Assembly (NCBI RefSeq): GCF_031180885.1 | Contig: NZ_JAPSLK010000004.1 | Span: forward strand, 1 to 64,000 | From: Saccharothrix sp. | Lineage (GTDB): Bacteria > Actinomycetota > Actinomycetes > Mycobacteriales > Pseudonocardiaceae | DNA length: 64,000 nucleotides | Direction of reading: 5' to 3' | In this document: piece after piece, positions 1-28,135 of the stretch | Layout: each line of letters begins with the position of its first letter | Numbering within the stretch: position 1 is the first letter of the stretch | The notes under the pieces: model-generated | Databases searched by the model: none | What the model saw: the letters and a program-made list of their open reading frames with translations, nothing else | What the model was told of the DNA's origin: nothing | Translations under genes and position numbers: made by a program

Positions 1-185
1 GTTCGTCCCCCGTACGGCCTGCCGGAGGCAACCACCCTTCGCTCCTCTTCGCAACCGGTGAAGCGTGGTTGCGAAGAGGAGCGAAGCGCGGTTGGGCTGC
101 GCCCGGGCCGTACGGGGGACGAACCGAGGCCCTTCCTGTGGCTGATAGCCCGAGCGAAAGCAGCGCCTGCGGCGCAAAAGCACGC
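1..185. repeat. Long palindromic repeat, copy 1
   Basis: The first 19 bases pair perfectly with bases 106-124 (outer stem), and a second perfect 16-bp stem lies inside (about 41-56 with 68-83, loop about 57-67). A 26-base conserved flank (about 125-150) follows, then a short hairpin around GCGCC-TGC-GGCGC. The same element recurs at 27897-28135 with near-identical outer arms and flank but a different inner stem that is again perfectly paired. The left edge is cut by the window start by about one base. It carries no credible protein; small reading frames across it are artefacts of the palindrome. It could be a REP/MITE-like dispersed repeat or a structured RNA. Confidence 0.9.
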
Positions 186-241
186 GGCCGGTGGTGGGTG
201 TCCGGTTGGGTCGGCGGGTGCGGTTGTGGCGGGGGCTCCCG

Positions 242-276
242 TATCTACTCCCGAGTAGGTTACTCTGAAGTAGATA
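242..276. promoter_or_regulatory. Putative operator of the acyl-CoA dehydrogenase operon
   Basis: Two 12-bp palindromic boxes, TACTCCCGAGTA (246-257) and TACTCTGAAGTA (261-272), sit 15 bp apart inside a larger inverted repeat whose ends read TATCTACT and AGTAGATA. They lie 30-64 bases before the GTG start of the first dehydrogenase. TACTC-N2-GAGTA-type palindromes are typical of TetR-family sites controlling fatty acid genes in actinobacteria; the regulator itself is not in the window, so the assignment is inference. Confidence 0.6.
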
Positions 277-305
277 GCCGTCGGGTGTGGAACAGGGGTG
301 TCGCG

Positions 306-1631
306 GTGGCGAGTACCACGGGGCAGGGCAGGCGGGACCCGATGGGGATGGCGTTGGCCGTCCTCAACCGGGTCGCCGCGTCGGACGTGCTGGACCGGTT
401 CGGGCTGCGCAAGCCGGTCGAGCGCGGGGTGTACGAGGCGACCAAGAGCGGGTTCCGGACCGTCGCCGCCGCTGGGCGCAGGTTCGGCGCGGTGCAGAAG
501 CTCGGCAAGCCCGCGCGGTTGCCGAACCGCCCCGAGCAGGGGTTGTTCGACATCACGCCGACCGACGAGCAGCAGATGATCATCGAGATGCTGCGCGAGT
601 TCGCCGCCGAACAGCTCCGGCCGGTCGCGGCGGACGCGGACACCGCCTGCGCCGCGCCGCCCGAGGTCCTCGCCGCGATGAACGAGTTGGGCGTCAGCCT
701 GGTCGGCGTCCCCGAGGAACTGGGTGGCGCGGGTAGCGAGCGGTCCGCGGTCAGCGGTGTGCTCATCGCCGAAGCGCTGGCCCACGGGGACATGGGTCTC
801 GCGGTGGCGTGTCTCGCGCCCGCCGCCGTGAGCACCGCGCTGACCCTGTGGGGCGACGCGGGGCAGCAGTCGACGTACCTGCCCGCGTTCACCGGCGACA
901 ACGTCCCCGCCGCCGCGTTGACCATCCAGGAGCCGCACCCGCTGTTCGACCCGTTCGCCTTGCGCACCAAGGCACACCGGTCCGGCGGCGGGTACGTCCT
1001 CAACGGCGTCAAGGCCATGGTGCCCGACGCCGCCAAGGCCGAGCTGTTCGTGGTGGCCGCCGACCTCGCCGGTCGTGGCCCGGCGCTGTTCCTGGTGGAG
1101 TCGAGCACGCCGGGCCTGACCGTCGAGGCCGACCCCGGCATGGGGTTGCGCGCCGCCGGCATGGGTCGGTTGCACCTGGACGACGTCACCCTGCCCGCGA
1201 CCGCCCTGCTGGGCGACGAGAAGTCCTATGCGGACTGCGTGCGGCTGTCGCGGCTCGGGTGGTGCGCGCTGGCCGTGGGCACCGGGCAGGCCGTGCTGGA
1301 CTACGTGATCCCCTACGTCAACGACCGGGTCGCGTTCGGCGAGCCGATCAGCCACCGGCAGGGCGTCGCGTTCTCCGTCGCCGACATCGCGATCGAGCTG
1401 GAGGGCATGCGCCTGGTCACCTACCGCGCGGCCGGCCGTGCCGAGCAGGGCAAACCGTTCGCCCGGGAGACCGCGCTGGCGCGGGCGCTGTGCGCGGACA
1501 AGGGCATGAAGATCGGCTTGGACGGGGTGCAACTGCTGGGCGGGCACGGGTTCGTCAAGGAACACCCGGTCGAGCGGTGGTACCGGGACCTGCGTGCGGT
1601 CGGGCTGGCCGAGGGCGTCGTCCTCGTCTGA
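306..1631 (+). CDS. Acyl-CoA dehydrogenase family protein (FadE24-like)
   Basis: Flavin-dependent acyl-CoA dehydrogenase fold protein of 441 residues, expected to take part in acyl-CoA oxidation in the cytoplasm. A conserved lead-in of about 80 residues (MGMALAVLNRVAASDVLDRFG) precedes the usual N-terminal helical domain (about 81 onward), the middle beta domain with a TIQEP-type strand near 207, and a C-terminal helical domain ending in LLGGHGFVKEHPVERWYRD. GTG 306 is chosen; ATG 342 is an alternative. It is followed after 16 bases by a second dehydrogenase. The pair resembles, from memory, mycobacterial FadE24/FadE23, which are adjacent and isoniazid-inducible; the substrate is unknown. The two proteins probably form a hetero-oligomer like other paired actinobacterial FadEs (inference). 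Confidence 0.85.
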   Translation: MASTTGQGRRDPMGMALAVLNRVAASDVLDRFGLRKPVERGVYEATKSGFRTVAAAGRRFGAVQKLGKPARLPNRPEQGLFDITPTDEQQMIIEMLREFAAEQLRPVAADADTACAAPPEVLAAMNELGVSLVGVPEELGGAGSERSAVSGVLIAEALAHGDMGLAVACLAPAAVSTALTLWGDAGQQSTYLPAFTGDNVPAAALTIQEPHPLFDPFALRTKAHRSGGGYVLNGVKAMVPDAAKAELFVVAADLAGRGPALFLVESSTPGLTVEADPGMGLRAAGMGRLHLDDVTLPATALLGDEKSYADCVRLSRLGWCALAVGTGQAVLDYVIPYVNDRVAFGEPISHRQGVAFSVADIAIELEGMRLVTYRAAGRAEQGKPFARETALARALCADKGMKIGLDGVQLLGGHGFVKEHPVERWYRDLRAVGLAEGVVLV

Positions 1632-1647
1632 GGGCGGAAAGGTAATC

Positions 1648-2853
1648 ATGATCAACCTCGAAGTTCCCAAGAAGTTCGAGCAGCTCGTCGACCAGGCGCA
1701 CCAGGCCGCCGCGGAGTTCCTGCGGCCCAACTCGCGCAAGTACGACGAGGCCGAGCACACCTACCCCAAGGAACTGGACATGCTCGCCGCGCTGCTGGAC
1801 GGCCTGTCCGCGGCCGGCGGCGGCGCCGGCGCGGGCGGTGTGCGGCGCGCCTCGGACAAGTCCAAGGACGGCAACCGCAACGGCTCGAACCTCCAGTTGC
1901 TGCTGGGCACCATCGAGATGTGCTGGGGTGACGTCGGCCTGCTGCTGAGCATGCCGCGCCAGGGCCTGGGCAACGCGGCCATCGCGTCGGTCGCCAACGA
2001 CGAGCAGCTCAAGCGGTACCACGGCAAGTGGGCCGCGATGGCGATCACCGAGCCGGACACCGGTTCCGACTCCGGCGCCATCCGCACCACCGCCGTGAAG
2101 GACGGCGACTACTACGTCCTCAACGGCGAGAAGATCTTCGTCACGGCGGGGGAGCGCGCCGACTGCGTGGTGGTGTGGGCGACCCTGGACCGGTCGCTGG
2201 GCAAGGCCGCGATCAAGTCCTTCGTCGTCGACCGCGACACGCCCGGCTTCGAACTGGTGCGGCTGGAGCACAAGCTCGGCATCCGCGCCTCCGACACCGC
2301 GCACTTCCGCCTGGACAACGTGCGCGTGCACAAGGACAACCTGCTGGGCAGCCCGGAGATCAACACCGAGCAGGGCTTCGCCGGCGTCATGCAGACCTTC
2401 GACAACACCCGCCCGCTGGTGGCCGCGATGGCCGTCGGCGTGGCGCGGGCGGCGTTGGAGGAGACCCGGCGGGTGTTGGCCGAGGCTGGGGTGGAGGTCG
2501 ACTACGACCGCCCGGCGAACTCCCAGCACGCGGCGGCGGCCCGTTTCTTGAAGCTGGAGGCCGACTGGGAGGCCGCGTACCTGCTGGCGTTGCAGGCGGC
2601 GTGGATGGCCGACAACCGCAAGCCGAACTCGCTCCAGGCCTCCATGGCCAAGGCGAAGGCGGGCCGGACCGGTTCGGACGTCACCCTGGGCTGCGTGGAA
2701 CTGGCCGGCAGCACCGGGTACAGCGAGACGTCCCTGCTGGAGAAGTGGGCGCGCGACTCGAAGATCCTGGACATCTTCGAGGGCACGCAACAGATCCAGC
2801 AGCTCATCGTGGCCCGGCGGCTGCTGGGCAAGTCGTCCGCCGAGCTGAAGTGA
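1648..2853 (+). CDS. Acyl-CoA dehydrogenase family protein (FadE23-like)
   Basis: Second dehydrogenase of the operon, 401 residues. ATG 1648 is preceded by a GGAAAGG ribosome site and gives an N-terminus MINLEVPKKFEQLVDQ like FadE23 homologues. The substrate/FAD-binding signature AITEPDTGSDSGAIRTTA lies near residue 132 and the C-terminal DIFEGTQQIQQL motif near 376, the region that closes the active site in this superfamily. The gene is cotranscribed with the preceding one (16-base gap) and its stop codon abuts the stop of the convergent MBL gene within TGATCA. Specific chain length or substrate cannot be read from the sequence. Confidence 0.88.
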   Translation: MINLEVPKKFEQLVDQAHQAAAEFLRPNSRKYDEAEHTYPKELDMLAALLDGLSAAGGGAGAGGVRRASDKSKDGNRNGSNLQLLLGTIEMCWGDVGLLLSMPRQGLGNAAIASVANDEQLKRYHGKWAAMAITEPDTGSDSGAIRTTAVKDGDYYVLNGEKIFVTAGERADCVVVWATLDRSLGKAAIKSFVVDRDTPGFELVRLEHKLGIRASDTAHFRLDNVRVHKDNLLGSPEINTEQGFAGVMQTFDNTRPLVAAMAVGVARAALEETRRVLAEAGVEVDYDRPANSQHAAAARFLKLEADWEAAYLLALQAAWMADNRKPNSLQASMAKAKAGRTGSDVTLGCVELAGSTGYSETSLLEKWARDSKILDIFEGTQQIQQLIVARRLLGKSSAELK

Positions 2854-3591
2854 TCACCGAAGGGCTTGGTCGACCATCCCGTTGAGCGGGCCGCGGGCCA
2901 GGCCGCCGTGGCCTGGGACCAGGGTGTCGGCCGGAAGGTCCCGCAGTGAGGCGATGGCGTCCGCGGCGCCCTGCTCGGAGGTGTTGAACACCTCGGGCAG
3001 GCGCTGCGGGCCCTCGCCGCGGCGGGACGTCGGGTGGCCGGTCACCAGCGCGTCGCCGCTGAACAGGACACCCGTCGACGGCATCAGGTAGGCGGTGTGC
3101 CCGCTGGTGTGCCCCGGTGTCGGCACCGCCACCAGGCCGCCCGGCACGTCCAGCGGCACGTTCGGCGGGACGACGGTGACCTCCGACAGCGACATCCTGA
3201 TCCGCGGGAACACCGCCCGCACCGTGTCGAACACCCACCGCCGGCTCGCCCGGTGCCCGCACAGCCGCAGCATCTCCAGCGGTGTGATCTGCTCCAGGTA
3301 CTCCCGGCGCGCGTGCCGGGCCTCCTCCGCACCGGTCATGACGGGAGTGCCGAAGCGGCCGGCCATGGTCGGGACACCGCCGATGTGGTCGAGGTGGGCG
3401 TGGGTCAGCAGGATCGCGGTGACGTCCTCGGGGCGGTGCCCGATGGACTCGATGGAGGCGAGCAGGGCGGCGGAGTCGTTGAGGTAGCCGGTGTCCACGA
3501 GGGTCAGCGCCGACCCGTCCGACACCAGCGCCCAGTTGACGTTCGTCCCGGTGACCATGTGGACCCGGTCGTTCACCCGCGTCACGTGCAC
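2854..3591 (-). CDS. MBL-fold metallo-hydrolase
   Basis: Metallo-beta-lactamase-fold hydrolase of 245 residues. The metal motif HAHLDH is at about 64-69, with further ligands in PGHTSGHT (about 157-164), SGDALV and VPGHGG near 228. The fold binds two metal ions, normally zinc, and hydrolyses esters, thioesters or lactones; nothing points to a particular substrate. The start is GTG at 3591-3589, with an AGGGTG ribosome site that overlaps the end of the upstream kinase gene (4-base gap), so the two are probably one transcript. It converges tail to tail on the dehydrogenase operon. Confidence 0.85.
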   Translation of the reverse strand: MHVTRVNDRVHMVTGTNVNWALVSDGSALTLVDTGYLNDSAALLASIESIGHRPEDVTAILLTHAHLDHIGGVPTMAGRFGTPVMTGAEEARHARREYLEQITPLEMLRLCGHRASRRWVFDTVRAVFPRIRMSLSEVTVVPPNVPLDVPGGLVAVPTPGHTSGHTAYLMPSTGVLFSGDALVTGHPTSRRGEGPQRLPEVFNTSEQGAADAIASLRDLPADTLVPGHGGLARGPLNGMVDQALR

Positions 3592-3595
3592 CAGG

Positions 3596-4507
3596 TCACC
3601 CTAGCCGGCGGCGCGGCGCGAGCAGCGTGGTGGCGATCGCGACCTGCACCGGTTCCAGCGCGGGCTTGCCGTCCTCGACGTCCCACAGCGCGTTCTGGAG
3701 CACCCGGCCCAACGTCCACGCGGTCGCCCGGTCGCGGTCGAGGGACAGGGCGTCGGTGAGCAGGTCGAACCGGCGGCGGACGCCTCCGGGCACGTCGCCG
3801 GCCACGGCCTCCCAGCGGTTGTCCAACGCCGGCAGCAGGTCGAAGCCGGGGTCGCCGGCCAGGGACTCCGGGTCGATCGCCAGCCACGGTTCCCGCTCGC
3901 CCGCCAGGACGTTGTCGTAGTGCAGGTCCCAGTGCAGCAACCGGTCACCCGGCTCGGGCAGCACCTCCGCCACCGCCGCCGCGCACGTGCGGACCAGCGC
4001 CGCGTCCTCGGGTCCCAGGTGCCGCACCGCCCACGGGACCTGGTCGAGCATGGCGGCGGCGATGTCGGACAGCCGGCGCAGGCCCGGCGGCGCGGGGACG
4101 GCGGTCAGCCGGGCCAGCAGGCCCGCCAGGACGGTCAGCGCCTCCTCGTCGTCGGCGACCGACGACAGCGGGCGGGTGGCGTCCAGGCGTTCCAGCAGCA
4201 TCACGCCACCGCCGGCGTCGTGGTCCAGCAGGCGCACCACACCGTCGCCGTCCCAGGCCCGCAGACCCGCCAACGCGCCCGCGGTCTCCTCGGTGGGCGG
4301 CTGGAGCCGCAGCACGGCCGGCGTTCCGTCGGCGCGCACGACGGGCAGCACGAGCGACGCCATCCCGTTGCGGACCGGGCCGTCCGGGCGCAACGACCAC
4401 GTTTCCAGGTTCTCGGCGATGGACGCGGGCAGCGCGGCCAGCCACGCGCGGCCTTCGGGGGAGCGGTGCGACCGGACGAGCGCGTCGGGGATGTCGAAGG
4501 AGATCAT
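3596..4507 (-). CDS. APH(6)/hydroxyurea-type phosphotransferase
   Basis: Kinase of 303 residues with the fold of the streptomycin 6-phosphotransferase/hydroxyurea resistance family (APH_6_hur). The catalytic loop reads LLHWDLHYDNVL (about 190-201, catalytic Asp about 195), followed by WLAIDPE (about 208-214) and GDPGFDLLPAL, the metal-binding DFG-like segment of this family. Known members phosphorylate aminoglycosides, but many actinomycete paralogues have no proven resistance role. ATG 4507 is chosen; a TAGTGT -10-like box at 4523-4518 suggests a very short leader. It heads a two-gene unit with the MBL hydrolase and is divergent from the lipoprotein gene. Confidence 0.82.
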   Translation of the reverse strand: MISFDIPDALVRSHRSPEGRAWLAALPASIAENLETWSLRPDGPVRNGMASLVLPVVRADGTPAVLRLQPPTEETAGALAGLRAWDGDGVVRLLDHDAGGGVMLLERLDATRPLSSVADDEEALTVLAGLLARLTAVPAPPGLRRLSDIAAAMLDQVPWAVRHLGPEDAALVRTCAAAVAEVLPEPGDRLLHWDLHYDNVLAGEREPWLAIDPESLAGDPGFDLLPALDNRWEAVAGDVPGGVRRRFDLLTDALSLDRDRATAWTLGRVLQNALWDVEDGKPALEPVQVAIATTLLAPRRRLG

Positions 4508-4579
4508 CGTTGTCCCGACACTACCCGGCTGATGCGGATCGGTGATCGCGTTGTGGGTCTGCGCGGGGTCGGGGTCACC

Positions 4580-4591
4580 TAGGCTGCGCGC
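4580..4591 (+). promoter_or_regulatory. Putative -10 box for near-leaderless lipoprotein mRNA
   Basis: A TAGGCT hexamer at 4580-4585 lies 6 bases before the ATG at 4592, with no ribosome site between. This spacing is typical of leaderless or nearly leaderless actinobacterial transcripts. Confidence 0.4.
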
Positions 4592-5575
4592 ATGATCAGG
4601 GCGTTCCGGCGGGTTGCCGTCGCAGTGGGGTTGGCGGTCGCGGTGAGCGCGTGCACCACCCAAATCACCGGTTCGCCCGTGCCGGTGCCCAACCCCACGA
4701 CGCGGGAGAAGGCGACGGCCACCGCGAAGAGCCTGCTGGGCGACCTGCCCGCGGTCGACCCGTGCGGCTACCTCGACACCCGGGACGTGGAGCGGTTCGG
4801 CCAGGTCACGGCCGAGCCGCCGGAGTCGCTGGACTCCTGCCGGTTCACCGTCAAGACCTCCGGCGGGACGAGCCTCGACCTCCAGTTCGGGTCGCTGGAC
4901 CAGGTCGGCTCCGAGCGCGAGCTGGAAGGGAAGCCGGAGGACTACAAGGAGCTGCGGATCGTCGAGGAGCCCGAGGAGGCGATCCGGTGCGCCCGGCTGC
5001 TGGTGTTCGAGGACTTGGTGACGCTGTCGGTGAGCGTGGACAACTTCAGCTCGGACTCGGCGTCACCGGCCGAGATGTGCCGCATCGCCGACCACGCCGC
5101 GAAACTCGTCGCCGACCGGGTGTTGGACAAGAAGGTCGAGCACCGCGAGTTCGGGGCGAAGTCCGTGGGGCGGTTGGAGGCGTGCGGGGCGGTGCGGGCG
5201 AGCCTGGCGAAGGTGCCCGGCCTGACCAGCCCCAAGGCCCACGAGTACCCGGCCGCCCACCAGTGCCGGTGGAGCAACGACGGCCGCCTGTCCACGCCCC
5301 GCGCCCGCGTCACCTACGCGGTCGGCAAGCCGACCGAGCCCGGCGGCGAGAACACCGTGCGGGAGGACGTCGCCGGCCGCCCGACCGTGATCATCAGGTC
5401 CTCCGCCTCTTCGGTGGCGTTCTGCGCGGCGGAGACCACGCACATCCCGTTCGAGCGCGGGTTGCAGGAACTGGCGGTGGTCACGGTGACCCTGCCCTCG
5501 GGCACCCCGGCGGACCAGGCCTGTGCGGCGGTCAAGGAGATCGCCGCCGAAGCCTGGGCCAAGCTGCCCAAGTAG
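4592..5575 (+). CDS. DUF3558-like lipoprotein with two related modules
   Basis: Exported lipoprotein of 327 residues. A short signal peptide ends in the lipobox AVSAC with the lipidated Cys near 21, followed by a Thr/Pro-rich linker. The rest resembles DUF3558 lipoproteins of Pseudonocardiales, which are usually about 180 residues. Here two modules follow one another, each with a spaced Cys pair: DPCGYL...DSCRF (about 58 and 83) and EACGAV...HQCRW in the second half. The function of the family is unknown; a role at the cell surface is implied by the signal. It is monocistronic, divergent from the kinase and convergent with the MerR gene. Confidence 0.72.
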   Translation: MIRAFRRVAVAVGLAVAVSACTTQITGSPVPVPNPTTREKATATAKSLLGDLPAVDPCGYLDTRDVERFGQVTAEPPESLDSCRFTVKTSGGTSLDLQFGSLDQVGSERELEGKPEDYKELRIVEEPEEAIRCARLLVFEDLVTLSVSVDNFSSDSASPAEMCRIADHAAKLVADRVLDKKVEHREFGAKSVGRLEACGAVRASLAKVPGLTSPKAHEYPAAHQCRWSNDGRLSTPRARVTYAVGKPTEPGGENTVREDVAGRPTVIIRSSASSVAFCAAETTHIPFERGLQELAVVTVTLPSGTPADQACAAVKEIAAEAWAKLPK

Positions 5576-5580
5576 CTCAC

Positions 5581-5628
5581 GGCAGGTAGGCGGCCGGCGC
5601 GGTTCAGGGCAGGTAGGCGGCCAGCGCG
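5581..5628. repeat. 27-bp-period duplication of the merR-like gene 3' end
   Basis: A 21-base stretch starting GGCAGGTAGGCGGCC at 5581 is repeated with one mismatch at 5608. The second copy encodes the last residues of the MerR-type regulator; the first lies just beyond its stop, so the gene tail was duplicated. Confidence 0.75.
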
Positions 5629-5942
5629 CCCCGCGACTGCTGGAGGTCCGCGATGCGCTCGTCCAGCGCGGCCAGCTCGCGGGTGAGGATCGCGCGCACC
5701 TCGGGGCACAGGCCCACCCGGGCCTCGTCGCCGTACGTGCACGGCAGCAGCGAGCGGATCACCTGCGTGGACAGCCCGGTGCCCAGCAGCGCGCGGATCT
5801 GGCGCACGGTGGTGACCGCCGTGTCGTCGTAGTGGCGGTAGCCGTTGGCCGCGCGGGAGGTCTCCAGCAGGCCCTGGGACTCGTAGTACCGCAGCAGCCG
5901 CGGACTCACCCCGGTCCGCGCGGACAGATCGCCGATCAGCAT
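5604..5942 (-). CDS. MerR family transcriptional regulator
   Basis: Small MerR-type regulator of 112 residues. The winged helix-turn-helix is at 1-70 (LIGDLSARTGVSPRLLRYYESQGLL, then NGYRHYDDTAV), followed by a dimerisation helix (VRAILTRELAALDERIADLQQ, about 80-102). The effector region is very short, with a single Cys within LLPCTYGDEA and another in GLCPEV, so the signal is probably a small molecule or redox cue (inference). It is divergent from the LLM oxidoreductase, and a palindromic operator sits between the two starts. ATG 5942 is the only reasonable start. Confidence 0.9.
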   Translation of the reverse strand: MLIGDLSARTGVSPRLLRYYESQGLLETSRAANGYRHYDDTAVTTVRQIRALLGTGLSTQVIRSLLPCTYGDEARVGLCPEVRAILTRELAALDERIADLQQSRGALAAYLP

Positions 5943-5963
5943 GTGACGCCCCCCGAGAGCGTG

Positions 5964-5993
5964 TTGACCTTGACACCGGTGTCAGTGCTTAAC
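5964..5993 (+). promoter_or_regulatory. MerR-type promoter/operator for the LLM oxidoreductase
   Basis: A TTGACC -35 hexamer (5964-5969) and a CTTAAC -10-like hexamer (5988-5993) are separated by 18 bases holding a perfect palindrome TGACACCGGTGTCA (5971-5984). An operator placed inside the spacer is the hallmark of MerR-family activation by DNA untwisting. The downstream ATG is at 6002, so the transcript has almost no leader. Confidence 0.75.
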
Positions 5994-6001
5994 GTCGGAG
6001 C

Positions 6002-6817
6002 ATGGTCGAACATTTCGCCTTGGAGGTCGTGCTGCCCGACGAGTCGCCGGACATGCCGCCGGAACGGCTCGCCGAGCTGGCGGCGCACGCGGAAACCCTG
6101 GGCTACCAACGGGTCTACCTGCCCGACCACGTCCTGCCGCCGGGCGCGTACGGGATGGACGCGTACGGCGGCGTGTACGAACCGCTGGTCGCCTTGTCCT
6201 ACATCGCCGCCCGCACGCGCACGATCGAGTTGGGCACGTCCGTGCTCGTGGTGCCGTTGCGCGACCCGTTCGTGCTGGCCAAGCAGGTGGCGACGCTGGA
6301 CCGGTTGTCCGGTGAGCGGTTCGCGCTGGGCATCGGGGTCGGGTGGGACCGGGTCGAGTTCGCGAGCGTCGGCTCGGACTTCACCGACCGGGGTGCGCGC
6401 ACGGACGAGGCGATCCGGTTGCTGCGGCACCTGTTCGAGGGTGAAGGCCCGTTCGAGGGGCGTTATCACGGCTACGAGACCGGGGTGTTCGAGCCGCGGC
6501 CCCGGCGGCGCGTGCCGATCGTCGTGGGTGGGATGAGCGACGCCGCCGTGCGCCGGGCCGCCCGGTTCGGGGACGAGTGGCAGGCGGTGGGGGTCGACCC
6601 GGACGGGTTCGCCGCGCGGCTGGCGCGCCTGCGGTCGTGGTCGGACCGGCCGGTGAGGCCGACCGTGCGGATCGCTTATCCGAGCGGGGACGTGGCGAAG
6701 GTGGTCGAGGAGGCGCGGGCCTTCGGGGAGGCCGGGGCGGAAGCGGTCGCGGTGTGGTTCAGCCCGGTCGACGGGTTCGCCGACCGGATGGCCGAGTTCG
6801 CCGAAGCCGTGCGCTGA
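6002..6817 (+). CDS. LLM-class (F420-type) oxidoreductase
   Basis: TIM-barrel oxidoreductase of the luciferase-like monooxygenase class, 271 residues. Seen in the sequence are the N-terminal LAELAAHAETLGYQRVYLPDHVLPP block, the central TIELGTSVLVVPLRDPFVLAKQVATLDRLSGERFALGIGVGW block, and the VPIVVGGMSDAAVRRAARFGDEW block, the usual order in actinobacterial F420-dependent members. The substrate is unknown. The MerR-type promoter in front makes it the likely target of the divergent regulator. It is followed by a strong hairpin shared with the convergent hydrolase gene. Confidence 0.85.
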   Translation: MVEHFALEVVLPDESPDMPPERLAELAAHAETLGYQRVYLPDHVLPPGAYGMDAYGGVYEPLVALSYIAARTRTIELGTSVLVVPLRDPFVLAKQVATLDRLSGERFALGIGVGWDRVEFASVGSDFTDRGARTDEAIRLLRHLFEGEGPFEGRYHGYETGVFEPRPRRRVPIVVGGMSDAAVRRAARFGDEWQAVGVDPDGFAARLARLRSWSDRPVRPTVRIAYPSGDVAKVVEEARAFGEAGAEAVAVWFSPVDGFADRMAEFAEAVR

Positions 6818-6824
6818 ACCCCGC

Positions 6825-6850
6825 GGGGTGGCGGAGCCGCCCGCCACCCC
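6825..6850. terminator. Bidirectional terminator hairpin
   Basis: GGGGTGGCGG (6825-6834) pairs perfectly with CCGCCACCCC (6841-6850) around a 6-base loop, between the stops of two convergent genes. Confidence 0.7.
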
Positions 6851-6859
6851 GGGAACCGG

Positions 6860-7717: not shown

Positions 7718-7726
7718 GGCGTTTAC

Positions 7727-7756
7727 CTAACTGTTCAAGTCGCTCAGAACGGTTAG
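7727..7756. promoter_or_regulatory. Operator 1 of the hydrolase/CGNR divergent promoter
   Basis: A 30-bp unit with arms CTAACTGTTC and GAACGGTTAG forming an inverted repeat over a 10-base spacer. It is repeated in related form at 7779-7808, 52 bp away (about five helical turns). It lies 10 bases before the hydrolase start. Confidence 0.7.
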
Positions 7757-7778
7757 ATCAACCCAAGCACGGCCCGTG

Positions 7779-7808: not shown

Positions 7809-7816
7809 GAGGACGG

Positions 7817-10482: not shown

Positions 10483-10484
10483 CG

Positions 10485-16120: not shown

Positions 16121-16195
16121 CACTGGTCGAGAGGCGCTGCAACGGACTCCGCGTCCGCCACGCTCGACCAGGTGGGACCACCGCAAGGGCGCCTT
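16121..16195 (+). ncRNA. S-adenosylhomocysteine (SAH) riboswitch
   Basis: Outer stem CTGGTCGAG (16123-16131) pairs with CTCGACCAG (16163-16171). The conserved core GAGAGGCGCTGCAACGG follows the first arm, CCGCCACGCTCG precedes and enters the second, and AAGGGCGCC lies downstream, where GCGCC (16189-16193) can pair with GGCGC (16133-16137) as the pseudoknot. This is the known architecture of SAH riboswitches, which turn on SAH recycling genes such as metH and ahcY when SAH accumulates. It ends about 17 bases before the metH ribosome site. One base of the usual CCAGGCUCG core differs (CCACGCTCG). Confidence 0.88.
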
Positions 16196-16224
16196 CCATG
16201 TGATGAACCATGGGAGGAGTCCGG

Positions 16225-19839
<3,615 letters not shown>

Positions 19840-20733: not shown

Positions 20734-20799
20734 TTTCTTACAAGAGCGACGGCCCACGAACCGCTAGCTTGGCGGCACCTTGGAGCAGAGGAGAGCGCC

Positions 20800-21381
20800 G
20801 TGGGCAAGGTGGTCATGTACAGCTCGGTGTCCGTGGACGGTTTCATCGCGGGCGAGGACGACCAGCCCGGACCGCTGTTCGACTGGTTGACCAGCGGTGA
20901 CGTCCCGTTGGACGACAGCGGCGTGCTGAAGGTGTCGCAGACGTCCTACGACTACACGCGGCCGTACTGGGACCAGGTCGGGGTGACGATCGCCGGCCGC
21001 CACGTCTTCGACATCACGGACGGCTGGGACGGGAAGCCTCCGGCCGGGGTCGACCAGGTGGTCGTCGTGACGCACCGGTCGGCGCCCGAGGGCTGGGACC
21101 CCGCGGCGCCGTTCCACTTCGTCGACGGCGTCGAGGCGGCCGTGGCCAAGGCGCAGGAGCTCGCGGGGGACCGCATCGTCGAGGTCGCCGCCGGGGACGT
21201 CGGTGGTCAGGCGCTCGCCGCGGGCCTGGTGGACGAGGTGCGCATGGACGTCGTGCCCGTCGTGTTCGGGTCCGGCAAGCGCTACTTCGGGTCGGTTGAC
21301 GCGCAGCACCTGTTGGAGGACCCCGACGTGGTGATCCAGGGCAACCGGGTGCTCCACCTGCGCTACCCGGTGCGCCGTTAG
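20800..21381 (+). CDS. Dihydrofolate reductase-fold (RibD C-terminal) protein
   Basis: NADPH-dependent reductase-fold protein of 193 residues: MYSSVSVDGFIAG at the N-terminus, ITIAGRHVFD-like segment near 65, and EVAAGDVGGQALAAGLVDEVRMDVVPVVFGSGKRYF near 135-170, as in the DHFR/RibD C-terminal family common in actinomycetes. Real substrates of these stand-alone proteins are mostly unknown. GTG 20800 has a GAGGAGAG site upstream. It is followed after 25 bases by an alpha/beta hydrolase that is probably cotranscribed. Confidence 0.85.
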   Translation: MGKVVMYSSVSVDGFIAGEDDQPGPLFDWLTSGDVPLDDSGVLKVSQTSYDYTRPYWDQVGVTIAGRHVFDITDGWDGKPPAGVDQVVVVTHRSAPEGWDPAAPFHFVDGVEAAVAKAQELAGDRIVEVAAGDVGGQALAAGLVDEVRMDVVPVVFGSGKRYFGSVDAQHLLEDPDVVIQGNRVLHLRYPVRR

Positions 21382-21406
21382 GCTCCCCCCGGAACGAGGA
21401 GGGAGC

Positions 21407-22183
21407 ATGCCGCACACCCGCGCCGCGGACGGCACCAAGATCGGCTTCGACGTCCTGGGCGACGGCGACCCGTTGGTGCTGCTGGCCGGTCAAGCCAACT
21501 CGCGGCACTGGTGGGACCCGATCCGCGCCGACTTCGCCGCCGTCCACCGCACGATCGCCCTCGACACCGTGGGTACCGGCGAGAGCGACGAGCCGGCGGA
21601 CGACGACTACTCGATCCACCGGTTCGCGTCCGACGTCATCGCCGTGCTGGACGAACTCGGCATCGCCCGCGCCCACGTCTACGGCACGTCGATGGGCGGC
21701 AAGGTGGCCCAGCGGCTGGCCATCGCCCACCCCGACCGCCTGAACGCGCTGGTGATCGGCTGCACGTCCCCCGGCGGCGCGGGTGGCCTGGTCGCGGACC
21801 GCGAGGTGCTCCGCCCGCTCGCCCTGTCGAAGCGCCAAGCCCGGGAAGCCTTGCTGGACCTGATGTTCACGCCCGAGTACGTGCAGCACCACACCGGTCC
21901 GTACCACGTGCTCGGTGACCCCGAGATGTCCCTGCCGGCCCGCCGGGGCCACAAGCGGGCCAGCGATGCGCACGACGCCTGGGACGAACTGCCGAAGATC
22001 ACCGCGCCGACCCTCGTCCTGCACGGGTCCGCCGACCGCTTCAGCCCGGTGGACAACGCGAGGCGCCTCGCCTCGCGCATCCCCGGCGCGGAACTCGTCG
22101 TGATCGAGGGCGCCCGGCACGCGTACTTCGAGGAATTCCGCGCCCGGGCCACCCCGGCGGTCCTCGACTTCCTCGCCCGCTAG
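21407..22183 (+). CDS. Alpha/beta hydrolase
   Basis: Serine hydrolase of 258 residues. The nucleophile elbow GTSMGG is near 101-106, the acid probably lies in LHGSADRFSPVD and the base in EGARHAYFEEF. The N-terminus ADGTKIGFDVLGDGDPLVLLAGQ is typical of 3-oxoadipate enol-lactonase or esterase-like family members. A GAGGAGGGAGC ribosome site supports ATG 21407. The stop codon shares the CTAG tetramer with the stop of the convergent MOSC gene. Confidence 0.87.
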   Translation: MPHTRAADGTKIGFDVLGDGDPLVLLAGQANSRHWWDPIRADFAAVHRTIALDTVGTGESDEPADDDYSIHRFASDVIAVLDELGIARAHVYGTSMGGKVAQRLAIAHPDRLNALVIGCTSPGGAGGLVADREVLRPLALSKRQAREALLDLMFTPEYVQHHTGPYHVLGDPEMSLPARRGHKRASDAHDAWDELPKITAPTLVLHGSADRFSPVDNARRLASRIPGAELVVIEGARHAYFEEFRARATPAVLDFLAR

Positions 22184-22662
22184 CCCAGGCTCAGGACCGC
22201 CGGACCCCGCCGCAGCACCCCGTCGTCGAGGGGCACGCACCGCATCCCGCCCCGACCCCGGAGCGCCCGCATCGTGCCCGGCCCCAGCACCGCGTCCAGC
22301 CATGCGCACGGGTTGGCCGGGCGGTGGACCTCGAAGCGGACGGGGCCGTCGCCCGAGTCGAGGGTGAACACGTCGTGCCGGACCAGGCCGTTGACGTCGA
22401 AACCGCGCAACACGATGTTGCGCCGCACCAACAAGGGGTCCGCACCCGCGTCCAGGGCCTCGACCGCGAACACCGTCACGGCCGCGTTCCGGTGGGCCGG
22501 GTGGTTGAAGTACCGGTCGCCGACGATGCCCAGGCCCGCCCGCACGACGACGTGGTCGCGGGAGGCGGGCTCGGGGTCCGTGCGCGGCCCGTCGGCGGGG
22601 CGGCCCTCGTAGGCGTGCACGGCGGACACCTGCAGCGCCACGATCTCGACCGGTGTGCTCAC
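22180..22662 (-). CDS. MOSC-domain protein
   Basis: MOSC domain protein of 160 residues. The domain binds molybdenum cofactor-type sulfur carriers in other proteins. Seen are [40 protein letters not shown] and [17 protein letters not shown], the usual MOSC blocks with the conserved Cys. Small stand-alone MOSC proteins have been tied to detoxification or sulfur transfer, but no substrate is evident here. The GTG start at 22662 overlaps the msrA stop (GTGA), so it is translated together with msrA, hinting at a shared oxidative or sulfur role (inference). Confidence 0.85.
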
Positions 22663-23162
22663 CGCTCGCCGAGCTGCCACTCCGGGCGGACGTAGTGGCA
22701 GGTGTACCCGTTCGGGTAGCGCTCCAGGTAGTCCTGGTGCTCGGGCTCGGCCTCCCAGAAGTCGCCGGCCTGGGCGACCTCGGTGACGACCTTGCCCGGC
22801 CACTTGCCCGAGGCGTCGACGTCGGCGATGGTCTGCTCGGCCACCCGCTTCTGCTCGTCGCCGTCGTAGAAGATCGCCGAGCGGTAGCTGGTGCCGATGT
22901 CGTTGCCCTGGCGGTTGCGGGTCGTCGGGTCGTGGATCTGGAAGAAGAACTCCAGGATCTGCCGGTAGCTCAGCCGCGCCGGGTCGTAGACGATCTCGAT
23001 GGCCTCGGCGTGCGTGCCGTGGTTGCGGTAGGTGGCGTTGGGGACGTCGCCGCCGGTGTAGCCCACCCGGGTGGAGACGACACCGGGGTGGCGGCGGAAC
23101 AGGTCTTGCATGCCCCAGAAGCACCCGCCCGCGAGGACGGCCTTCTCGGTGACAGTGGCCAT
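22659..23162 (-). CDS. msrA: Peptide methionine sulfoxide reductase A
   Basis: MsrA of 167 residues, reducing methionine-S-sulfoxide in proteins. The active-site motif GGCFWG places the catalytic Cys at about 14; [35 protein letters not shown] and SAIFYDG follow as in all MsrA. No C-terminal resolving Cys pair is seen, so recycling probably relies on an external thiol such as mycothiol or thioredoxin (inference). ATG 23162 follows AAGGAG by 9 bases; an earlier in-frame start lacks support. Confidence 0.95.
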
Positions 23163-23325
23163 GTTGGTCGCTCCTTGGATCCGGTTCCTGTCCAGGTCAA
23201 CGCTCTCACGTCCGCGCCGCATCCCGACACCGGTTGTGATCTCACCCGCGCGTGTGCAGTCGCGTGCCCGGTAGGGGTGACGTGCGCGGTTCCGACTCGC
23301 CGGGCCGGTCGGAGCCGCGAGCAGC

Positions 23326-23472
23326 GTGGGGGTCGACGCGCCGAGCCCGGAGGACCCCGTGACCCTCTCCTACCCGGAACTCCGCAAGGTCCTCAAGCCC
23401 ATGGGCGACCCGCAGGCGGACGCCGTGGTGAGCGACTCTCCGCGCGCGGAGAAGCAGCCGGCGGCGCACTGA
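23326..23472 (+). CDS. Possible micro-protein or gene remnant
   Basis: A 48-codon frame from GTG 23326 ends at 23472 (…[32 protein letters not shown]…). Third codon positions are nearly all G or C, which marks real coding sequence in this genome, but there is no convincing ribosome site and no recognisable family. It may be the tail of a deleted gene. Its stop codon lies inside the 26-bp repeat that follows. Confidence 0.35.
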
Positions 23473-23528
23473 GGCGGCGCAGATAGGCGGTGTACTGAGG
23501 CGGCGCAGATAGGCGGCGTACTGAGGCG
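23469..23528. repeat. 26-bp tandem repeat, two and a third copies
   Basis: A unit beginning CTGAGGCGGCGCAGATAGG occupies 23469-23494 and 23495-23520, and CTGAGGCG starts again at 23521. The array separates the micro-ORF from the stop codon of the MocR gene. Confidence 0.85.
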
Positions 23529-24932
23529 TCACACGGCGATCGTCGGCACGACGGGCGCACCGGCCGGCTCGGTCGCGAACCGCCGCCACGCCGCCGCCAG
23601 ACCCGTCACCGCCTGCGAGATCACCTCCGGCGTGGCGACGAACGGCAGCCGCAGCCGGTCGGTGCTCCCGCCGGACGCGTCCAGCGCTCTACCGGGCAGC
23701 ACGGCCACCCCGTGCCGCAGCGCGACCTGGGCGAACGCGGCGGCGTCGGTCCCGGGCAGCCGCACCCACAGCGTCTGCCCGCCCTCCACCGGCGTGAACT
23801 CCCACTCCGGCAACTCCGCCCGCAGCAACGCGCACAGGTGGTCGTGGCTCGTCCGCAGGTGCGCCACCCGCTCCGCCCGCACGGCCTCGAAGTCCCGCAC
23901 CAGCTCCGCCGCCGCGAACTGGTCGAGCACCGCGCTGCCCAGGTCGTGCACCGCCTTGAACCGCGCCAGCCGTGCGACCAACGCGGCGGGCGCACGCACC
24001 CACCCGACCCGCAGACCGCCCCACACGACCTTGCTCAGCGAACCCACCGCGAGCACCGACGGCACGAGCGGGGGCGCGGGCGCGCCGGTGAAGTCCAGGT
24101 CGGCGAGGGCGTCGTCGAACACCAGCGGGGTGTCCCCGGCGACCCGCACCAGCCGCCGCCGTTCCAGCGGGCTCAGGGTGTGGCCGGTGGGGTTGTGGAA
24201 CGTCGGCACCGCGTAGACCAGCGCCGGGCGGCGGTGGGGCAGCGCGTCGGCCAGCCCGCCGGGTGGCGCGGTCGTGATGACGGCGGCGGCCTCGCGGAAC
24301 AGGTCCAGCGCGCCGGGGTAGGTCGGTGCCTCGACCAGCACCTCGTCACCGGGCGCGACCAGGGCGCGGGTGATCAGCGCGAGCGCCTGCTGCCCGCCGC
24401 TGGTCACCAGGACCTCGTCGGGCGAGGTCGGCGTGCCCGCCGCGGTGAAGTGCGCGGCCAGCGCGGACCGCAGTCGCGGGTGGCCCAGCGGGTGGTAGCC
24501 CAGGTCGTCGGCGGGCAGGTGGGACAGCGCGCGGCGGTGGGCCTCGAACAGCGAGGGCGGCGGGCGCAGCGGTCCGGCGCACGCGAACTGGAGGACGCCG
24601 TCGGGCGGTTCCAGCAGGTTGAGGAACATGGGGTTGGCGGTCTCCGCCCGCGCGGACGAGGGACTGCCGTGCGGGACCCACGTGCCGCTGCCACGCCGCC
24701 GGGTCAGCCGGCCTTCCTGGCGCAGCAGGTCGTAGGCGGCGACCACGGTGGTGCGGCCGACCGCGAGGCCCGCGGCGAGGACCCGGTCGGGCGGCAGGAG
24801 CGTGCCGCCGGGGAGTCGTCCGTCGTCGATCAGCTCGCGCAGGCGGGACGCGAGCAGCAGGTAGAGCGATCCGCGCCCGGCGGACCACCGTCCGAGCGCG
24901 CCGACCAGGTCGTCCACCGGGATTGGCCTCAC
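23529..24932 (-). CDS. MocR-type regulator (GntR HTH + aminotransferase fold)
   Basis: Fusion of 467 residues: a GntR winged helix (about 20-85; SRLRELIDDGRLPGGTLLPPDRVLAAGLAVGRTTVVAAYDLL) and a fold-type I aminotransferase domain (110-460) with HNPTG at 246-250 and the PLP Lys about 301 in GSLSKVVWGGLR. MocR proteins use PLP, or an amino acid bound to it, as effector. It is divergent from a trans-sulfuration enzyme, and ACCAAT boxes lie between the two, one inside its own first codons (GTG 24932 start). Regulation of the neighbouring PLP enzyme gene is likely. Confidence 0.92.
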   Translation of the reverse strand: MRPIPVDDLVGALGRWSAGRGSLYLLLASRLRELIDDGRLPGGTLLPPDRVLAAGLAVGRTTVVAAYDLLRQEGRLTRRRGSGTWVPHGSPSSARAETANPMFLNLLEPPDGVLQFACAGPLRPPPSLFEAHRRALSHLPADDLGYHPLGHPRLRSALAAHFTAAGTPTSPDEVLVTSGGQQALALITRALVAPGDEVLVEAPTYPGALDLFREAAAVITTAPPGGLADALPHRRPALVYAVPTFHNPTGHTLSPLERRRLVRVAGDTPLVFDDALADLDFTGAPAPPLVPSVLAVGSLSKVVWGGLRVGWVRAPAALVARLARFKAVHDLGSAVLDQFAAAELVRDFEAVRAERVAHLRTSHDHLCALLRAELPEWEFTPVEGGQTLWVRLPGTDAAAFAQVALRHGVAVLPGRALDASGGSTDRLRLPFVATPEVISQAVTGLAAAWRRFATEPAGAPVVPTIAV

Positions 24933-24977
24933 AAGCAGACCAATCTAGCCGAATTGGCTCTCAACGCGGACCAATTC
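24921..24977. promoter_or_regulatory. ACCAAT boxes between MocR and trans-sulfuration genes
   Basis: Four copies of the core CCAAT/ATTGG occur: GATTGGCC (24921-24928), GACCAATC (24938-24945), GAATTGGC (24951-24958) and GGACCAATTC (24968-24977), in mixed orientation. Repeated short boxes in direct and inverted order are usual for MocR regulators. Confidence 0.6.
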
Positions 24978-24996
24978 GCCGGTCAAGATCGTTCCC

Positions 24997-26154
24997 ATGC
25001 GCCCAGACACCCGAGTAGTCCACACCGCGGTTCCCGACCTGACGGGCAGCCGCCCGCTGGCCGTGCCGCTGTACCAGACCTCCGGCTTCGCCTTCACCGA
25101 CGCGGACACCTTCGCCGACGCGATGAACCGGCCGGACGGGGCCTTCGTCTACACCCGCCTGGGCAACCCGACCGTCCGGGCACTGGAGAACGCGGTCGCG
25201 GACCTGGAGGGCGGTGCCGCCGCGCTGGCGACCTCGTCCGGAATGGGCGCGATCAACGCGGTCCTGCTCGCCACCCTCTCGGCCGGCGACCACGTGATCG
25301 CCCAACGCTCCCTCTACGGCGGCACCCACGCCCTCTTGCGCGACATGGAGGCGCGGTGGGGCATCGAGGTGACCTTCGTCGGGGGTCACGACCCGGCCGA
25401 GGTTCGCGCGGCTCTGCGTCCCCGGACGAAGGTGCTGTACCTGGAGACGATCTCCAACCCGACCGGTCACGTCAGCGACCTGGCGGCCCTGTCCGAGGCG
25501 GCCGGCGACGCTGTGGTGGTTGTGGACAACACCTTCGCCACGCCCTTGCTGTGCCGGCCGATCGAGCACGGTGCGGACGTGGTGGTGCACTCGACCACGA
25601 AGTACCTGGGCGGCCACAGTGACGTGACCGGCGGTGTGGCGGTGTTCGCCGATGCCGATCGGCACCGGCACACCTGGCACCACGGCATCGAACTGGGCGT
25701 GACGCCGGATCCGTTCGCGGCCTGGCTCATGATCCGCGGCCTGCGCACGTTGGCCCTGCGGATGCGCCGGCATGTGGAGAACGCGGCGGTGCTGGCGCAT
25801 CGGCTGGTCGAGCACCCGTCCGTGCGGGCCGTTCACTGGCCGGGCTTGCCGACCCACCCGAGTCATGAGGTGGCGAGCAAGCTGTTGGACGGGTTCGGCG
25901 CCGCGTTCTCGTTCGACCTGGCGGACGCGGAAGCCGGTCGCAGGTTCGTGAGCGCGTTGGAGTTGGTGCACCTGGCTCCGTCGCTGGGTGGGACGGAGAC
26001 CTTGGTGCTGCACCCGGCCGGCACCTCTCACCGGCAGTTGTCGGAGGAGGAGTTGACCGAGGCCGGCATCTCGGGCGGCACGATCCGGCTGTCCGTGGGT
26101 GTCGAGGACCCGGATGACCTGTGGGAGGACATCGCCCAGGCCCTGGCCGGCTGA
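24997..26154 (+). CDS. Trans-sulfuration PLP enzyme (Cys/Met metabolism family)
   Basis: Fold-type I PLP enzyme of 385 residues, Cys/Met metabolism family. YTRLGNPTVRALENAVADLEGG (52-73), SSGMGAINAVLL (80-91) and the PLP Lys about 202 in HSTTKYLGGHSD are characteristic. Family members are cystathionine gamma-synthase/lyase, methionine gamma-lyase or O-acylhomoserine sulfhydrylase; sequence alone does not decide, though the YTR and the unreduced core fit a lyase or synthase acting on Met or homocysteine derivatives. Control by the divergent MocR protein is likely. It ends next to a strong bidirectional hairpin. Confidence 0.9.
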   Translation: MRPDTRVVHTAVPDLTGSRPLAVPLYQTSGFAFTDADTFADAMNRPDGAFVYTRLGNPTVRALENAVADLEGGAAALATSSGMGAINAVLLATLSAGDHVIAQRSLYGGTHALLRDMEARWGIEVTFVGGHDPAEVRAALRPRTKVLYLETISNPTGHVSDLAALSEAAGDAVVVVDNTFATPLLCRPIEHGADVVVHSTTKYLGGHSDVTGGVAVFADADRHRHTWHHGIELGVTPDPFAAWLMIRGLRTLALRMRRHVENAAVLAHRLVEHPSVRAVHWPGLPTHPSHEVASKLLDGFGAAFSFDLADAEAGRRFVSALELVHLAPSLGGTETLVLHPAGTSHRQLSEEELTEAGISGGTIRLSVGVEDPDDLWEDIAQALAG

Positions 26155-26202
26155 GACCCGCTGCGCGCGCCCCGAGGGGGTGGGGCGCGCGCAGCGTGCG
26201 GG

Positions 26203-26204
<2 letters not shown>
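26155..26204. terminator. Bidirectional terminator hairpin
   Basis: CTGCGCGCGCCCC (26161-26173) pairs perfectly with GGGGCGCGCGCAG (26182-26194), and GACCCG/CGGGTC extend it outward. It lies between two convergent genes and touches the stop codon of the minus-strand one. Confidence 0.8.
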
Positions 26205-27090
<886 letters not shown>

Positions 27091-27093
27091 TTA

Positions 27094-27111
27094 TTACCGA
27101 ACGATCGGTAA
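27094..27111. promoter_or_regulatory. TetR-type operator 1
   Basis: The 18-bp near-perfect palindrome TTACCGAACGATCGGTAA lies 49 bases before the hydrolase start; it shares ACCGwwCGwwCGGT with operator 2. Confidence 0.75.
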
Positions 27112-27140
27112 AGCAACGTGACGAGGGCGACCTTGCGTCT

Positions 27141-27158
27141 TGACCGTTCGTTCGGTAA
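27141..27158. promoter_or_regulatory. TetR-type operator 2
   Basis: TGACCGTTCGTTCGGTAA, a second copy of the same palindrome 47 bp from the first (centre to centre), 11 bases before the regulator ATG. Autoregulation is implied. Confidence 0.75.
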
Positions 27159-27168
27159 ACAGGCGGGT

Positions 27169-27726
27169 ATGCCACGCCCACCTTCCGTGCAGGACGACGA
27201 GCTGTTCGACCGGTTGGCCGAGGTCTTCCGCACGACCGGCTACGAAGGCGCGTCCCTGGGAGCGCTCGCCGAGTCGACGGGGCTCAAGCGCGCGTCGCTC
27301 TACCACCGGTTCCCCGACGGCAAGGCGCAGATGGCCGAGGCTGTCCTGGAGCGGGTGGAGCGGCTGTTCGACGAGTTGTTGGTGCCGATGCGGACCGATC
27401 CGGACCCACGGGCGGGGGTGGTGCGGACGGCGGAGTTGTTCGGCGAGTTCTACGGCGGCGGGCTGCTGTCGTGCGTGCTGGACACCCTGCCGTTGAGTGG
27501 TGCGCCGGAGTCCGTGCGGCGGCGGGCGGCGCAGGTGGCCGAGGTGTGGGTCTCCGCGATGGCCGACGTGGCGCGGCGGGGTGGTCGGTCGGTGGAGGAG
27601 GCTCGGGCGGCGGCTGAGGACGCGTTCGCGGCGGCGGAGGGTGGCTTGGTGTACGGGCGGCTGTTCGGGGATGGGGGGCCGTTTCGGCGCGCCTTGGCGC
27701 GGTGGCCCGACTTGTTGCTTGGGTAG
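27169..27726 (+). CDS. TetR-family regulator
   Basis: TetR-type repressor of 185 residues. The N-terminal helix-turn-helix is FDRLAEVFRTTGYEGASLGALAESTGLKRASLYHRFPDGKAQMAEAVLE (about 11-60); the C-terminal ligand domain is helical with SCVLDTLPLSGAP near 105. This resembles the TetR subgroup that has a LmrA/YxaF-like C-terminal domain. ATG 27169 is the only start compatible with the operator at 27141-27158. It probably represses itself and the divergent haloperoxidase-like gene through two identical-type operators. Confidence 0.9.
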   Translation: MPRPPSVQDDELFDRLAEVFRTTGYEGASLGALAESTGLKRASLYHRFPDGKAQMAEAVLERVERLFDELLVPMRTDPDPRAGVVRTAELFGEFYGGGLLSCVLDTLPLSGAPESVRRRAAQVAEVWVSAMADVARRGGRSVEEARAAAEDAFAAAEGGLVYGRLFGDGGPFRRALARWPDLLLG

Positions 27727-27896
27727 CTGGCCCTCGCTTCGCGCTGCTGGGGAGGAACGCGCTTCGCGCTCCAGGACGCGCTGCGCGCTTTCAAGATCGA
27801 CGCGCTGGCGCGCTGTCAAGATCAAAAGCTTGAAAGATCAAAAGCTACAAGCGGCGCTCGCCGCGCGGCAGGCCCCCGGGGGGTGGAAGGGCGTCG
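27727..27896. other. Flank of the second palindromic repeat
   Basis: No gene. Short GC hairpins of the GCGCTGCGCGC and CGCGCTGGCGCGC kind occur. An unusually AT-rich patch repeats AAGATCAAAAGCT twice in direct order near 27818-27849. The stretch may be part of the same repeat element as the palindrome that follows; the window start hides the equivalent flank of copy 1. Confidence 0.5.
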
Positions 27897-28053
27897 GTTC
27901 GTCCCCCGTACGGCCTGCCGGAGGCAACCACCCTTCGCCCTTCCTGGCAACCGGAAAAGCTGGTTGCCAGGAAGGGCGAAGCGCGGTTGGGCTGCGCCCA
28001 GGCCGTACGGGGGACGAACCGAGGCCCTTCCTGTGGCTGATAGCCCATAGGGC
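27897..28053. repeat. Long palindromic repeat, copy 2
   Basis: The 124-bp palindrome (27897-28020) has the same 19-20-bp outer arms as copy 1 at the window start, and the same 26-base flank after it (28021-28046). Its inner 16-bp stem has a different sequence from copy 1 on both arms yet is again perfectly paired. No protein is encoded. Confidence 0.92.
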
Positions 28054-28135
28054 GCGCCTGCGGCGCGAAAGAGCGCCGCTGCGCGGCGAAAGAGCGCCGC
28101 TGCGCGGCGGAAGAGCGCCGTTGCGCGGCGAAGAG
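28054..28135. repeat. Array of small GC hairpins with 21-bp period
   Basis: After the palindrome come GCGCC-TGC-GGCGC and then three 21-base units (28073-28093, 28094-28114, 28115-28135), each a GCCGC-TGC-GCGGC hairpin followed by GAAAGA or a variant. Copy 1 has a single related hairpin in the same place, so the array has expanded here. Confidence 0.85.

Follow-up and report, generated by a model that had tools for sequence, protein, structure and literature searches.

The stretch of DNA analysed here, hereafter the window, comprises 64,000 nucleotides of Saccharothrix sp. (assembly GCF_031180885.1, contig NZ_JAPSLK010000004.1, positions 1 to 64,000 of the forward strand), and carries two copies of a long palindromic repeat. 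The repeat belongs to a real, large and conserved family, organised like the REPINs, the hairpin-forming doublets of repetitive extragenic palindromic (REP) sequences. Copy 1 (1..125, +) opens the window, and copy 2 (27885..28031, +) lies between two convergent genes. One of these encodes a TetR-type regulator, the 3′ end of which points towards the repeat (27118..27726, +; a simple gene caller favoured a shorter start at 27187), and the other (28172..28915, −) encodes a product that gave no match in a Pfam scan. An earlier note on this DNA had placed the two palindromes at 1-125 and 27897-28020; both are present, the second being longer than was described. Both are lone arms of the kind that we term type 1 (counted without a partner), and arm sizes in the window were 131–147 nt. 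Copy 2 is complete, and copy 1 is truncated: the contig (C71) begins at window base 1, and the outer left part of the arm is therefore missing.

The centre of each copy is a long inner hairpin, P3, located at 37..86 in copy 1 and 27933..27981 in copy 2 (both +). The stems measure 20 bp each (37-56 with 67-86, and 27933-27952 with 27962-27981), rather than the 16 bp first reported, and are perfectly complementary in both copies. The two stems differ at stem positions 7, 9, 12 and 14 and every change is mirrored on the opposite arm, so that the paired differences and the arm complementarity described in the earlier note stood even though the length did not. The 27 bases that follow the palindrome are identical between the copies (26 had been counted previously), and the outer stem of copy 2 (27885-27917 with 27999-28031) is paired at 32 of 33 positions. 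Two mini-hairpins accompany the inner hairpin on the + strand: P2 at 20..30 in copy 1 (TGCC-GGA-GGCA) and 27916..27926 in copy 2, and P4 at 94..104 (GGGC-TGC-GCCC) and 27989..27999. Adjoining copy 2 is a module, M (27850..27884, +), in which a small hairpin (GCGGCGCTCGCCGC) is joined by a stretch that complements the left outer arm, and the motif GCGTCG is present next to the outer arm. The mini-hairpins, M and GCGTCG were read directly from the sequence, with the helices of P2 and P4 additionally supported by an alignment of 25 arms. Module M is conserved among the copies of this genome and co-varies in relatives. Small GC-rich palindromes with AAAGC-like spacers (GCGCCGCTGCGCGGCGAAAGA units) also surround copy 2 (27720-27850 and 28046-28137), and many other copies in the genome are flanked likewise.

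The repeat is not restricted to the window, and dozens to over a hundred copies lie between Saccharothrix genes. A blastn search of its own genome (G000) with copy 1 gave 83 matches, representing at least 41 places and one fragment when the better strand was taken at each place; this is a lower bound, as 40 of 122 candidate stretches were scored. Copy 2 as the query matched 10 of 60 relatives, all ten within the genus. A covariance model, R1, was built from 25 chosen arms and scored on at most 135 candidates per genome, and matched 21 of the 25 genus genomes, G000 included, with no match at all in G007, G008, G022 and G024. Unrelated long palindromes also score with R1, often on both strands of one place, and only a best E<1e-20 was therefore called strong. 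Strong matches were found in 9 of the 25 genomes, namely G000, G006 (Saccharothrix algeriensis DSM 44581), G009, G010 (S. tamanrassetensis), G015, G016, G019, G021 and G023 (S. obliqua). At the family level R1 matched 32 of 200 genomes, including seven from the genus; because R1 scores any long palindrome, neither this count nor the 21 of 25 consists of true members only. Sequences from G174 (another genus), G004 and others nevertheless follow a common plan of CCTG, mini-hairpin, variable stem, mini-hairpin and CAGG.

Copy 2 matched nothing in plasmid or phage records. The repeat scored below the gathering threshold of every Rfam family: the single match in the window was an S-adenosylhomocysteine (SAH) riboswitch elsewhere, and a further Rfam search returned only sub-threshold matches, mostly to microRNA precursors. 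The core of the original proposal holds, namely that the fold rather than the sequence is maintained in a repeat resembling REPs or miniature inverted-repeat transposable elements (MITEs), or in a structured RNA, outside the known families. A survey of open-licence PubMed Central literature by title and start of abstract, covering palindromic repeats, MITEs, the S. espanaensis genome and DUF222 inverted repeats, found no description of this family. Five contigs of G000 (C71, C25, C76, C68 and C95) start or end inside an arm, indicating that the repeat breaks assembly. This matters in practice for genome projects, the contig of the window being among those affected.

Each arm consists of an outer stem (P1), the mini-hairpin P2 (TGCC-GGA-GGCA, TGTC-AAA-GACA and others), the long inner hairpin P3 and the mini-hairpin P4 (GGGC-TGC-GCCC and variants). 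Folded as RNA, copy 2 has a predicted energy of −134.5 kcal/mol compared with −66.8 (standard deviation 4.0) for 200 shuffles, none of which was as low (z −17); folded as DNA, z was −17 against shuffles and −15 for the opposite DNA strand. Across the 25 chosen arms, 94.8% of 1369 cells were paired, as against 36–42% when the partners were slid by 1–3 columns. Two-sided changes occurred at 34 of 55 pairs (21.5 in shuffles; 0 of 500 shuffles as high), and the number of further pair types showed no excess (55 versus 55.2). All four helices hold at least one pair changed on both sides, the support for P2 being one pair and for P4 two. The outer arms also co-vary between species, and co-variation is thus not confined to the inner stem. 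These results uphold the suggestion that it is the fold, rather than the sequence, that is maintained, and pair-preserving changes appeared in all seven species groups that provided enough arms, or in the cross-species alignment. Neither of the outcomes that the earlier note had named as refuting was observed. One-sided departures from pairing in P1 are strongly asymmetric: on the + strand there were 73 A.C cells and 1 G.T cell (14 versus 1 position-species combinations), and A.C departures correspond to G.U or G.T on the − strand. This hints, short of proof, that the molecule which folds is the − strand.

Module M lies outside P1; its own small hairpin is followed by the segment with complementarity to the left outer arm of that copy. 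The mean longest match between segment and arm was 5.56, compared with 4.41 (standard deviation 0.15) when the arms were re-paired, and 0 of 3000 shuffles were as high; the test used 48 representatives of 113 extracted rows, of which some are mis-anchored and which are related to one another, so that the shuffle count is not to be read as a probability. In S. obliqua, for example, AAGGATGACG accompanies an outer arm holding GTCATCC, and AAGGAGAACTGTC one holding GTTCTCC. A long-loop arm subfamily, represented by L291 (G016:C1:384400-386400) and L262, has a conserved inner loop and the mini-hairpins TGGC-GGA-GCCA and GCCC-TTC-GGGC.

Several features go beyond the earlier note: the two mini-hairpins per arm, the co-varying outer arms and neighbouring module, a preference for convergent gene ends, and a heterotypic head-to-head pair of arms. 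In S. algeriensis, 14 of 15 loci aligned as head-to-head pairs, and 13 of these 14 combined a type 1 with a type 2 arm, the M modules facing inward. Locus L163 pairs other arm types, and at L174, the fifteenth locus, one arm was detected in this comparison, its partner being found in a separate one. The same arrangement occurs in G010 and G015, and in S. algeriensis a 3-nt insertion is shared by the left and right outer arms of the same copies. Several type 1 arms of G000 have a more divergent partner 300–400 nt away on the opposite strand; a partner was detected for 13 of 40 type 1 arms, and 27 of 40 had none. The site of copy 2 is occupied in G016 by a complete pair of another subfamily, lying between orthologues of both neighbour genes together with one extra inserted gene. 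The full unit is a type 2 arm on one strand head to head with a type 1 arm on the other, M modules inward; the window holds two lone type 1 arms. Larger composite elements were considered for a pair separated by 9.6 kb in G009 and another separated by 4.3 kb in G016, and were rejected, as the enclosed open reading frames (ORFs) read as ordinary chromosomal genes.

Using a simple GC-frame gene caller that had been tried on the window, we placed 136 element sites, of which one was called inside an ORF and 27 had no neighbour within the sequence retrieved. The 108 sites used were 57 convergent, 42 tandem and 9 divergent, whereas 175 gaps of 60 bases or more without an element were 24 convergent, 85 tandem and 66 divergent (Fisher p 3e-12). 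The preference for convergent gene ends and avoidance of divergent ones is what might be expected if selection acted on structure alone, with the arms acting at gene ends as terminators in both directions or as stable RNA hairpins, and a disfavoured mutation in one half of a stem being followed by a partner mutation through ordinary mutation and selection. The very stable folds, and outer-stem departures that would be G.U on the − strand, fit such a role. The strongly unequal copy number among members of the genus does not, and we regard this explanation as unlikely in view also of the pattern of stem variation described below.

Comparison of G000 with G016 revealed turnover at shared sites. 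Orthologous flanks were recognised at L052/L256, L057/L267, L063/L261, L065/L262, L062/L272 and L040/L315; a further candidate, L054/L262, was rejected since its match falls inside the element. At the four sites where the arms of both species could be read (L052, L057, L065 and L040) all differ, and no outer-arm 12-mer is common to 35 G000 and 32 G016 copies. Such species-specific arms at orthologous sites point to overwriting or re-insertion. One site is filled in G016 (L272) and empty in G000 (L062), with approximate borders. Overwriting is also what would be seen if the repeats were old and immobile, homogenised by homologous recombination or gene conversion that swaps whole hairpins as blocks, with no current transposition. 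Chimeric stems such as those of L037 and L047, and the one-sided decay of stems in G000 and G016, agree with that idea. It is harder to reconcile with the filled and empty site, with the very unequal copy numbers among genus members, or with identical inner stems that recur at many S. algeriensis sites, in up to 27 copies, and block exchange alone makes no new paired variants. We consider immobility improbable.

Paired evolution was clearest in S. algeriensis, for which 52 type 1 and 51 type 2 arms were collected from 64 loci, many of these loci having been selected on R1 score, a criterion biased towards paired arms. The type 1 arms had 23 distinct inner stems, in which 1195 of 1196 pairs were Watson–Crick, and between nearest variants of equal length 51 pair changes were two-sided and 1 was one-sided. 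A subset selected by an 18-base right-arm pattern, together with the partner arms (17 and 16 arms), had 759 of 759 pairs intact, with 36 + 8 two-sided changes and no one-sided change. The type 2 arms were less extreme (11 distinct stems, 1168 of 1173 Watson–Crick pairs, 5 two-sided versus 9 one-sided changes). For other genomes, ratios were calculated from the two commonest stem lengths, each with at least four variants (G015 gave one arm only), and two-sided to one-sided changes stood at 31:13 in S. tamanrassetensis, 12:1 in S. obliqua and 14:1 in G009. On the M side, singletons per base in S. algeriensis numbered 0.0058 for type 1 and 0.0043 for type 2; the corresponding values for P3 plus loop were 0.0031 and 0.0032.

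A functional RNA stem is conventionally proved by compensatory changes, and the near-absence of one-sided intermediates in the high-copy repeat of S. algeriensis makes the choice between copying and selection directly testable. Were the structure preserved by selection, intermediate G.U or A.C steps should be met in the inner stems, particularly as each copy is one of many; there is 1 in 1196 cells, and several private variants are already paired. Copying from arm to arm is probably the best account of paired evolution in S. algeriensis, its rivals being selection on the hairpin and the exchange of blocks. The claim that inner stems vary and yet keep their pairing holds in S. algeriensis and calls for caution in G000, where one-sided variation is also present.

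The interpretation towards which we lean, with modest confidence, is that of a high-copy intergenic palindromic mobile repeat of REPIN-like organisation, the inner hairpin of which is kept paired mainly by one half rewriting the other. The element would probably be recognised as a folded single strand, and would spread between intergenic sites with a preference for 3′ gene ends, either by transposition with a protein supplied from elsewhere, by gene conversion between copies, or by both; mobility of this kind may be the cause of the high copy number. One half of P3 might be rewritten from the other by hairpin-templated repair, template switching or fill-in during copying. Because one half would be rewritten from the other, new variants would tend to arise already paired.

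A number of observations weigh against such a mobile, self-copying element. One-sided changes outnumber two-sided ones in G000 (21 two-sided to 32 one-sided) and G016 (24:30), and chimeric and decayed stems are common in G000; copying may be inactive in these genomes, or outrun by decay and recombination. Unlike P2 and P4 sequences persist within arms, as do outer-stem A.C pairs, and copying of the whole palindrome should erase both. The minimum-energy fold of one arm is a single long hairpin (−114.7 kcal/mol versus −105.3 for the four-way fold), and for this reason the evidence for the four-way form is co-variation rather than energy. The strand asymmetry of P1 is reversed in P2 (0 versus 16 cells) and not clear in P3 (13 versus 8 position-species combinations). 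Lone arms of G000 are no more decayed than paired ones (2.22 versus 2.92 unpaired cells per arm), and no target duplication was seen at the filled and empty site or at the element ends in G174. The search for a mobilising protein in the genus was similarly unrewarding. PF01797, the Y1 transposase domain of REP-associated tyrosine transposases (RAYTs), is absent from G000, G006, G009, G010, G015 and G016, and gave one match in G023. When 631 predicted proteins from around the elements were compared all against all, no mobility gene was recognised in the 22 largest families, which, judged by eye, look ordinary, for example ABC transporters and response regulators. Lastly, DUF222 (PF02720) is absent from eight arm-bearing genus genomes (G000, G006, G009, G010, G015, G016, G023 and G004), and occurs in three genomes without any R1 match, G007, G008 and G024.

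DUF222 is of interest owing to its association with the arms in G174. Of 21 DUF222 matches in that genome 13 loci were examined, and 10 carry homologous arms: seven are flanked by them on both sides, and three, next to a contig end, on one; self-BLAST found no arms at the remaining three, one of which has a different inverted repeat. At the seven loci the inverted repeats span 293–366 bases and are 82–99.7% alike, and matches to them elsewhere in G174 tend to end near M. The two G174 proteins that were scanned have DUF222 and HNH domains. The layout of DUF222-HNH genes bounded by long arm-containing inverted repeats (for instance L303 310-2240) resembles that of an insertion sequence. These loci raise the prospect that a DUF222-HNH protein is the mobilising nuclease, and that the Saccharothrix elements are gene-less derivatives whose partner has been lost. 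However, an R1 match accompanies only 1 of 30 DUF222 loci in eight other genomes, and the eight arm-bearing genus genomes named above lack the domain, so we judge this origin decidedly unlikely. A role for DUF222 as the universal partner was rejected, since the association with arms is found in G174 only; it is a candidate mobiliser in that one lineage. Other inverted repeats without an R1 match surround DUF222 genes at 4 of 5 loci in G232 (L407, L415, L422 and L428), with hairpins of about 62 nt, and at 3 of 4 loci in G189 (L411, L419 and L426).

Among known systems, the closest parallels are with REPINs and their RAYTs. The Saccharothrix family shares with them a large number of intergenic palindromic copies (at least 41 places in G000, with 1 of 136 sites inside an ORF) and an inverted doublet as the unit, seen in S. 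algeriensis, G010 and G015 and in the 13 of 40 partnered type 1 arms of G000. Both the inverted doublet and compensatory changes have been described for REPINs (PMC3116915). In a survey of REPs, as in the Saccharothrix family, heterodimers occur and convergent and tandem gene ends are preferred; the survey also reports repeats with no transposase of their own (PMC3733652). The differences are considerable: REPs measure 20–40 bp, whereas Saccharothrix arms are about 130–150 nt with two mini-hairpins, the host is an actinobacterium, and the six copy-rich genomes lack a Y1 transposase. By the transposase test, the family is not a member of the REPINs. The CGTC-tagged REPs, which seemingly lack a dedicated transposase (PMC3733652), are a further likeness, though much shorter than the Saccharothrix arms; GCGTCG stands beside copy 2. 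REPIN-like organisation thus extends to genomes in which no REPIN-type transposase was found, pointing to a possible new mobiliser, for which DUF222-HNH is one candidate.

Elements of the IS200/IS605 group have subterminal hairpins and tetranucleotide guides that pair with the cleavage sites (PMC8266576). The complementarity between M and the outer arm is similar in that a nearby segment matches another part of the same end; it differs in that the known guides are tetranucleotides acting on the cleavage site, in that the Saccharothrix arms have no known cleavage site, and in that a Y1 transposase was not found in the six copy-rich genomes. Template-switch mutation can introduce paired multi-base changes in one event, with no one-sided step, as was shown for RNA genes by ancestral reconstruction (PMC8794818). 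Here, a comparable process is proposed for a mobile repeat. DUF222-HNH genes are known in connection with REP13E12 repeats (PMC10589994); in G174 the arms bound genes of this kind, and the Saccharothrix genomes checked have arms and lack DUF222.

Double-hairpin elements of fungal mitochondria also consist of two hairpins, and have been reported to be mobile and variable in their stems. A bolder, tentative extension of the mobile-repeat reading, possible though doubtful, is that the arms define a new class of actinobacterial single-strand mobile elements, built of two unlike four-way arms with a guide-like M, in which a half-rewriting step would produce the paired jumps of the stem and to which the arm-bounded DUF222-HNH genes of the relative would belong. 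If so, DUF222-HNH, a widespread family without an assigned function, would be a transposition nuclease.

Two other features of the window deserve mention. The SAH riboswitch (RF01057) lies at 16123-16201 (+), scoring 39.5 bits against a gathering score of 37, just 5′ of a 1204-codon ORF (16225-19839). At positions 48335-48567, a GC-rich unit of the GGCGGCGGTGGTC type recurs as direct repeats that overlap one another.

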